Below, one piece after another: positions 2,831 through 5,127 of a DNA stretch of 64,000 nt. The notes beneath the pieces are model-generated. The model saw only the letters and a program-made list of their open reading frames with translations, made no database searches and was not told where the DNA came from. The DNA comes from Coprothermobacter platensis DSM 11748 (GTDB taxonomy: Bacteria > Coprothermobacterota > Coprothermobacteria > Coprothermobacterales > Coprothermobacteraceae): positions 1,252,795 through 1,316,794 of the forward strand of contig NZ_KB899040.1 of assembly GCF_000378005.1 (NCBI RefSeq). The letters are read 5' to 3'. Position 1 is the stretch's first letter; every line of letters begins with the position of its first letter. Position numbers and translations under genes: made by a program.

Positions 2831-4027
2831 TTAAGGCACTGAACTGACCAGGACTCCACTACTGTTCAGAAGTTTAGCAGGGTCTTTATCGTTGTTCCAC
2901 ATGTTCGCCTTCTTCCACATCAGTACAGATGGTGGATTGTTGTAAGCGTTTTTACCTGAAACAACCGTTACAGAAGCACCTTTTCTAAGGATGAAGCCTT
3001 GTGGAAAAGTAAACGTTTGATTGCCTTGCACACTGATAAGTTTCCACCCAGACATATCTACATCTGTTGTGCCGTTGTTCTTTATGACTACCTTTTCGCC
3101 TGCAAGGTCTTTGCTGACAATTTGCACTTTAACTGTAGATTTTGCAGGAGTTGACGGAGCTGGCTTTGTTACAGTAACTACCCATGGTTTGACATTCCAC
3201 GTAACTGTTTTGCCATCGGAGTAGGCTACGATAGTCCCCTGCTTATCAGTGCGGAGTATCTGTGCTTTCGCACTTTGCAGTCTACTTATGGTTTCTGGAG
3301 TAGGATGCCCATAGCTGTTTGTCCCTACAGAGATGACAGCATATTTAGGTTCTATTGCATTTAGAAATGCAGTGGAAGTAGAATATTTTGAGCCATGATG
3401 ACCAACCTGAAAAACTGTTTGAGGCTTTACTACACCAGCAGACAGCATATCATTCTCCGCTTTGGTTTCAGCATCGCCTGAAAATAGAAACGAAGTGCTA
3501 CCATAGACAACGGACGTTACAGCAGACCAGTCGTTTATATCATCGGTTGAGTAAGCTTTTAGAGGGCTCCACATGGCAATCTTCACACTGGGATCAAGAG
3601 AGATGGTTACGCCTTTCTGTGCAGTTTTAATAGTTAATCCTTTAGCTTTTACAGCATTTAATACATCTAAGTAGCTTTGTGTGTTCTGAACTACTTTAGG
3701 CATATAAATAGAACCTATAGCAAAGGTTTTTATTACCTCATCTGCACCACCTATATGGTCACTGTCTAGGCAACTTAAAACAAGCGCATCTATCTTAGTT
3801 ATTTTCTTACTTTTAAGATAGCTGATTACTGTGCTAACTGCTTTCTGCGGCCCGGCATCATAAAGCAAAGTTTTCCCATTCGGCAGTTGCACTAATACTG
3901 ACAGCCCTTCTCCTACATTTATGTAGCTTACCGTAAGTTTTACAGCACCCCTGACAGGTGTAAAGGTAAGGAAACCGATGACCAATAAACCTGTGAGAAG
4001 AATGGAGATTATCTTCTTACTGTTCAC
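2831..4027 (-). CDS. secreted ComEC-like metallo-beta-lactamase-fold hydrolase with lamin-tail domain
   Basis: The protein (398 aa) starts with a hydrophobic signal/anchor segment. It continues with an MBL-fold domain of the ComEC/Rec2 C-terminal type (about 30-285) and ends with a lamin-tail (LTD) beta-sandwich (about 298-395, GWKLISVQG region). Metal ligands visible are D88, D90, H91, D185 (FSGDAE), H210 (VGHHGS) and H241 (SYGHPTP). The first His of the usual SHxDxDH motif is Cys86 (SCLDSDH). Such MBL-LTD proteins are thought to be secreted nucleases or phosphoesterases; the substrate is unknown. GTG 4027 is preferred because AAGGAGG lies 6 nt before it, while the longer TTG frame would begin at the ribosome site. 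It lies about 28 bp upstream of cas3 on the same strand, so it is probably co-transcribed. Confidence 0.75.
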   Translation of the reverse strand: MNSKKIISILLTGLLVIGFLTFTPVRGAVKLTVSYINVGEGLSVLVQLPNGKTLLYDAGPQKAVSTVISYLKSKKITKIDALVLSCLDSDHIGGADEVIKTFAIGSIYMPKVVQNTQSYLDVLNAVKAKGLTIKTAQKGVTISLDPSVKIAMWSPLKAYSTDDINDWSAVTSVVYGSTSFLFSGDAETKAENDMLSAGVVKPQTVFQVGHHGSKYSTSTAFLNAIEPKYAVISVGTNSYGHPTPETISRLQSAKAQILRTDKQGTIVAYSDGKTVTWNVKPWVVTVTKPAPSTPAKSTVKVQIVSKDLAGEKVVIKNNGTTDVDMSGWKLISVQGNQTFTFPQGFILRKGASVTVVSGKNAYNNPPSVLMWKKANMWNNDKDPAKLLNSSGVLVSSVP

Positions 4028-4265
4028 TGCCAACCTCCTTTTCAAACAGCTCGTTCATGAGCTTTTCTGCCTGAGCTGTGCGTTACTGCGTTTTATTCTT
4101 ATCAACTGCCCATAATACGTTAGGCGTTTCATATACATAGTCTTTTGCATGTACATCACTGTCGGAGAACATCTCTTTGTGCTGAACTATAACGTCTTTT
4201 GCAAGAGTTTCTACAACCGCAATTTCTCCTTCGGTTTCAAATCTGTCTACCATACCTTCACGCAT
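4017..4265 (-). pseudogene. DUF3006-like small protein gene with an in-frame stop
   Basis: The first 60 codons (VDRFETEGEIAVVE near the start) match the small DUF3006 family, which commonly accompanies ComEC-like MBL proteins. A TAA at 4085-4083 ends this frame. The same frame then continues for 21 codons to a TAA at 4019-4017, and this tail (AEKLMNELFE) looks like the usual DUF3006 C-terminus. The second stop overlaps the GTG start of the MBL gene, a typical operon junction. The gene therefore appears interrupted by a single nonsense change, or by a base-call error, rather than being naturally 60 aa long. The shorter product could still be made. Confidence 0.6.
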
Positions 4266-4298
4266 TAACTTGAACTTCCTTTTCGCAGCCTATTACTG

Positions 4299-4388
4299 GC
4301 GTCACTATCTTCAAGGTACTTCAGAAGCCACACCGCTGTATGCCTCTACTTTCTATAATTTCTTTATCATCGAAGTTTTTGCAAGCTT
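4299..4388 (-). CRISPR. relict CRISPR leader plus degenerate repeat inside the cas operon
   Basis: Positions 4299-4328 match the 30-bp CRISPR repeat at 22 of 30 positions (18 of the last 20). After an 18-bp gap, 4347-4388 matches the leader block 121-162 at 37 of 42 positions. Order, orientation and approximate spacing (22 bp at the live array) are the same. It fills the 148-bp gap between cas5 and the DUF3006-like gene. No second repeat or spacer was seen beside it. It looks like a dead leader end of a former array, or a duplication of the live leader. Confidence 0.7.
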
Positions 4389-4413
4389 AACAGTGCGAGT
4401 CAAACAGACATTA

Positions 4414-5127
4414 TTATGTGCTTTTCACAATATTTTCGCTGGTAAGAAATTTTACTGGAACTTTACCTACAATGCTGTAACTGCCTTTCATAGGTATAGG
4501 TTTTGCATTCACGTCGTACGCTATGTCCATGTAGGATAGAGGTTTCTTATTTGCATCTAGGTAGAATGGTATGCGTTCTTTGCCTAATTTGTTACCATTT
4601 TCTCTTATCTTCTCTACGTCGATCGTCTTTGCAGGCACAATGCTGTCTACTACTGCAGAACCGTTGTTTTCTTCTATTTCATATTCACCTATAAACTTGA
4701 AGTTAGCTATCATTTCGCTCATACCAAGGTATGGAGTAAAAACTGTGCGGTGTTCGGAAAGCATTGTTACTAGCTGTTCTTTTATCTGCTGTGGCAGTTT
4801 TCTTACATAGATGCAGTAGTAGGGGTCTTTAATAATCTCAACAGGTATCTGTGTTCTGCCTTTGCCGAGTGCATTTTCTCCATCTATCGTTTTAATGTAG
4901 TTCAGCGTCATGTGCAGTGTCTTTTTAACATGTTTTAAGCTTACCGCAACTTCCATGTCTTTTAGCTCAGCGGCATATTTGCTTTTATCAATGCCTACAA
5001 TAGCTCCTACAAGCCCCCTTACTGCTGTAGGTGGCGGAAAGGCATAAGACAGCACAGAAGAATTCGTGTAGAACTTTCTATATACTGCTAAGGGACCCCA
5101 TAGGTCAAATACTACGGCTGTGTCCAT
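4414..5127 (-). CDS. cas5: CRISPR-associated protein Cas5 (type I-B, Cas5h-like)
   Basis: Cas5 binds the 5' handle of the crRNA in Cascade. The 237-aa protein opens with a Cas5 RAMP signature: a hydrophobic beta strand, then FPPPTAVRGLVGAIVG at about 30-45, which is characteristic of the group. Length is typical. It follows cas7 with an 8-bp gap and is followed by the relict leader rather than directly by cas3. ATG 5127 is preceded by a GAAGG-type ribosome site inside the short gap. Confidence 0.88.
   Translation of the reverse strand: MDTAVVFDLWGPLAVYRKFYTNSSVLSYAFPPPTAVRGLVGAIVGIDKSKYAAELKDMEVAVSLKHVKKTLHMTLNYIKTIDGENALGKGRTQIPVEIIKDPYYCIYVRKLPQQIKEQLVTMLSEHRTVFTPYLGMSEMIANFKFIGEYEIEENNGSAVVDSIVPAKTIDVEKIRENGNKLGKERIPFYLDANKKPLSYMDIAYDVNAKPIPMKGSYSIVGKVPVKFLTSENIVKST

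Follow-up and report, generated by a model that had tools for sequence, protein, structure and literature searches.

A truncated second copy of the CRISPR leader-repeat junction within a type I-B cas operon of Coprothermobacter platensis, a probable relict of gene relocation

In the 64,000-nt stretch of Coprothermobacter platensis DSM 11748 DNA analysed here (the window), the sequence at 4309-4388 on the minus strand was found to be a second copy of the live type I-B leader-repeat junction, 82% identical to it (66 of 80 columns) and located inside the cas operon. We consider it to be, with a probability of roughly three in four, a non-functional relict, namely a leader-repeat scrap of about 80 bp that was joined to a DUF3006-MBL gene pair and forms with it a composite of about 1.6 kb between cas5 and cas3. 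There is no good sign of remaining activity in the scrap, and its retained repeat bases may have a residual protein-binding role. Among the points against the relict reading are that the arrangement is known from one genome only and that 13 consecutive repeat bases are intact within the 21 nt of repeat that were kept.

All features discussed here are on the minus strand. Pfam and NCBIfam matches gave the type I-B gene order cas6-cas8b-cas7-cas5-cas3, with cas6 at 8867-8079, cas8b/TM1802 at 8079-6187, cas7 at 6194-5136, cas5b, the upstream neighbour of the relict, at 5127-4414, and cas3 (HD and helicase), the downstream neighbour, at 2811-466. After cas3 follow an IS200/IS605 remnant, the leader and then the array. 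The live counterpart of the relict occupies 69-234, with the first repeat at 69-98 and the leader at 99-234, and the array continues beyond the left edge of the window, through an assembly (N) gap. The adaptation genes cas1, cas2 and cas4 were not detectable in the genome, which has an estimated completeness of 91% and an N gap in the array. The locus looks like a decaying, interference-only I-B system, in keeping with the relict reading, and a site for spacer acquisition would be useless here because the adaptation genes are gone.

The similarity between the two regions was assessed at several scales. Gapped local alignment of the live and relict regions gave a score of 74, whereas 2000 dinucleotide-shuffled sequences averaged 17 and reached 33 at most. 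The relict leader block (4335-4388) matched the repeat-proximal part of the leader (109-162) at 44/54 positions, with 30/54 at the second-best place in the window, and the repeat register at + 4299 matched at 22/30, with 20/30 at the best chance site on either strand of the 64 kb. In a whole-genome BLAST search, the live junction and 4309-4388 were the only two copies (E=1.7e-12, 77% over 84). Based on these shuffle, window and genome-wide scores, we concluded that the live and relict sequences share common descent; chance similarity was ruled out by the E value together with the shuffle maximum. The initial annotation had described a degenerate repeat (22/30) and a leader block (37/42) between cas5 and the DUF3006-like gene as a relict in the order and orientation of the live array. 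Its counts were reproduced (4347-4388 against 121-162 gave 37/42 by direct count), the alignment was beyond chance as it had supposed, and the order and orientation, leader and then repeat on the minus strand, are those of the live array. The significant alignment beside a repeat identifies the block as a homologous relict of a CRISPR leader. A functional CRISPR array has at least two near-identical repeats with spacers; here there is a single truncated repeat, and no second repeat-like site at ≥18/30 was found near 3950-4298.

In agreement with the earlier reading, the block was absent from other loci: none of 59 other genomes held a copy, and the short matches in two of them (G002 and G030) spanned just 22-23 nt, the one in G002 (L012) lying inside an apparent long coding stretch. 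A generic promoter or repeat element common to other genes was rejected, as there was no further copy in the genome or in the 59 others. No Rfam family was recognized at the relict site, and viral contigs held no further copies of the leader or repeat pattern.

The homology extends over about 80 bp, comprising about 60 nt of repeat-proximal leader and the leader-proximal 20-21 nt of the repeat. As a whole, the copy is shorter than first described; its leader block is longer, and the term degenerate repeat does not fit what follows it. Directly after the leader block, the relict repeat part (4309-4329) agrees with the leader-proximal 21 nt of the register at 18/21, whereas the last 10 nt (4299-4308) match at 4/10 (Fisher p=0.015), which is chance level. 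The relict repeat is truncated rather than degenerate, and the half with the 5' handle of the crRNA is missing. Upstream of 4388, into cas5, leader similarity was at shuffle level only (p about 0.5), and the spacer from leader block to repeat is 4 nt shorter in the relict than in the live junction. The leader had been thought to be better kept than the repeat because the non-homologous repeat tail was counted; once the tail is left out, leader (44/54) and repeat (18/21) have diverged alike (Fisher p=1.0). As divergence is uniform across leader and repeat and consists mostly of transitions (12, with 2 transversions, in the 80 aligned columns), no part of the copy is singled out. Compared with the live array of the same genome (1-234), the relict is alike in the sequence, order and orientation of the leader block and the first 20 nt of the repeat, but it has no complete repeat, handle, spacer or second repeat, and the upstream half of the leader, which carries the best promoter candidate, is absent from it.

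The cas operon was compared with those of relatives, namely G004 (same family), G002 (same genus), the congener G001 and G053 (another lineage). In three related I-B loci (G004, G002 and G053), cas3 comes immediately after cas5, and the two genes overlap in G002 and G004. In these last two, cas4-cas1-cas2 come after cas3, and the array of G004 lies past cas2 at the far end. In C. platensis, cas5 and cas3 are separated by an insert of about 1.6 kb that holds the leader-repeat scrap, the DUF3006 gene and the MBL-LTD gene. DUF3006-MBL is a conserved pair that, in G001 and G002, is flanked by an epimerase gene and tRNA-Sec. The corresponding site is empty here, with the epimerase gene ending at L045:2895 and tRNA-Sec at 2896-2991 without DUF3006-MBL between them; tRNA-Sec may be a hot spot. 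Since its congener site stands empty, the pair is a newcomer in the cas operon, and since the position of cas3 is the same as in the relatives, cas3 has not moved. The proposal that a leader duplication brought both cas3 and the MBL gene into this place thus stands for the MBL part and fails for cas3.

The same comparison weighs on the suggestion that the place directly behind cas5 was formerly occupied by an array, most of which was lost, the live array being a younger copy. A leader and a partial repeat in matching order and orientation are consistent with it. Nevertheless, we regard such a history as very unlikely, given that cas5 adjoins cas3 in the three relatives and that the array of G004 lies after cas2. 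Moreover, the palindrome that divides cas2 from the leader in relatives adjoins the live leader here (235-278), which argues that the live array is in its ancestral place. If the gene pair moved here headed by the scrap, no array need ever have been present behind cas5.

The simplest history would be that, in this lineage, the DUF3006-MBL pair moved into the cas operon carrying the scrap in front of it. A piece of about 80 bp across the junction of leader and first repeat would have been joined to the front of the pair, with the joint inside the repeat, and the resulting composite would then have ended up between cas5 and cas3. The scrap and the genes probably entered as one piece, in that order of events, and the joint may have formed in an array first. 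At present, the scrap would do no more than contribute sequence to the 5' untranslated stretch of DUF3006-MBL-cas3. The break within the repeat is situated 44 nt upstream of the start codon of DUF3006. The stretch between scrap and DUF3006 resembles the upstream region of the congener's gene at p about 0.2 only, so the scrap and the genes might have arrived separately. The insert probably starts within 4389-4443, which has no significant leader similarity, and according to the cas5 alignment ten extra codons from this interval give cas5 here a ten-residue tail that is absent in relatives. In a search for a target-site duplication at the insert ends, a single shared 7-mer (TAAAGTT) was all that was found. 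The MBL-fold (ComEC C-terminal-like) and lamin-tail-domain gene at 4045-2831 is intact, with its orthologue beside the epimerase gene and tRNA-Sec in congeners. The DUF3006 gene (4265-4083) encodes 60 aa up to an in-frame TAA, compared with 76-84 aa in the congener; past this TAA (60 codons) its frame stays open through 4021-4082 as far as the MBL start, so DUF3006 looks recently shortened.

The initial annotation had also suggested a possible internal promoter. In this reading, the leader copy would sustain expression of DUF3006-MBL-cas3 once cas3 had been separated from cas5 by the insert. The copy does precede the inserted genes and is correctly oriented for this, and a promoter here would be useful because cas5 and cas3, which overlap in G002 and G004, no longer do so with the insert between them. 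Promoters were searched for with a sigma-70 consensus scan and with a rough weight matrix, which is of the E. coli type and is assumed to apply here. On the gene strand, the consensus scan returned no promoter in the relict block and, at the threshold of the tool, none in the live leader. By the matrix, the relict block has weaker sites only, for example TTGCAA-18-AATTAT (top 0.5% of positions), and the sole strong candidate of the live leader, TGTTATAAT at 182-190 (top 0.08%), is outside the copied block. No hairpin was found by a terminator scan between cas5 and DUF3006, and read-through from the cas operon would suffice. Considering these results, the promoter function is unsupported and appears unlikely.

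Ectopic degenerate repeats within type I-B cas operons are known from CreTA (PMC8501985, PMC9458426), and in this respect the relict is similar, being a partial repeat outside the array and within a cas operon. By this parallel, the scrap could be a mini-CRISPR of the CreA/CreR type, whose crRNA-like RNA would direct Cascade to one of the operon's promoters. However, in creA the last 8 nt of the first repeat, the 5' handle, are retained, a leader is lacking (PMC8501985) and a second repeat is usually present. The relict is the opposite in each: it has a leader, no second repeat lies downstream, and precisely the handle portion was lost (4/10 over the last 10 nt). Relict and live transcripts were no more stable in folding than shuffles, with z=0.48 for the relict, and the pseudo-spacer matched the cas promoter at 8/11 scored seed positions at best, in scattered registers (only the region upstream of cas6 was covered, with no PAM fixed). 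A mini-CRISPR of this kind is therefore extremely improbable. According to a rule published for haloarchaea, it is the first 12 nt of the repeat to which Cas6 binds (PMC9458426). Because the part of the repeat that was kept includes this portion, the retained 21 nt could serve as an operator bound by Cas6 within the 5' untranslated region of the DUF3006-MBL-cas3 mRNA; we keep this as a reading of very low probability. Cas6 would then bind without cutting, there being no handle, and would damp the translation of Cas3 when Cas6 exceeds the array RNA, forming a feedback.

For the relict reading, a precedent comes from the same genus. In G001 (L053 5430-8793), a DpnII restriction-modification operon, with two methylases and DpnII, lies within a decaying I-B array in the layout R-R-[MTase, DpnII, Dam]-R-R-R, with degenerate repeats on both sides; a lone intact cas2 and a small cas1 scrap are found alongside. 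This split array indicates that genes can land in the CRISPR repeats of the genus. The two cases are alike in their degenerate repeats and in genes spliced into CRISPR repeats, and they differ in that the genes of G001 are inside the array, whereas here a leader-repeat scrap sits among the cas genes, at a distance from the array. No second genome with the arrangement of C. platensis was found among the closest relatives or in a contig scan with the MBL protein, and the literature search returned nothing close to a leader-repeat relict within a cas operon.

As a relict, the scar would illustrate the uptake of unrelated genes by a cas operon, with one end in a CRISPR repeat and with the former site of the gene pair identifiable in sister species. 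It also calls for caution: an ectopic repeat in a cas operon is not always a regulatory mini-CRISPR, and the MBL gene should not be treated as a cas gene. Were the relict transcriptionally active or Cas6-active after all, it would represent a new way to wire cas3.

Two further features were observed between the live leader and cas3. The palindrome at 235-278 is imperfect (CATGTCG...GTGCAAAAACACTGGGGG...CGACATG), and a similar one with a GCAAAAA core is located just past cas2 in G002 and G004, at the cas2/leader boundary; the palindrome may be conserved in these loci as a boundary element. At 299-469, in the interval from cas3 to the array leader, an IS200/IS605 element has kept its two ends and lost its middle. 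This remnant occupies the place of cas4-cas1-cas2 in relatives, and its ends are 87-88% identical to those of an intact TnpA/TnpB-type copy at L009 5343-7141.
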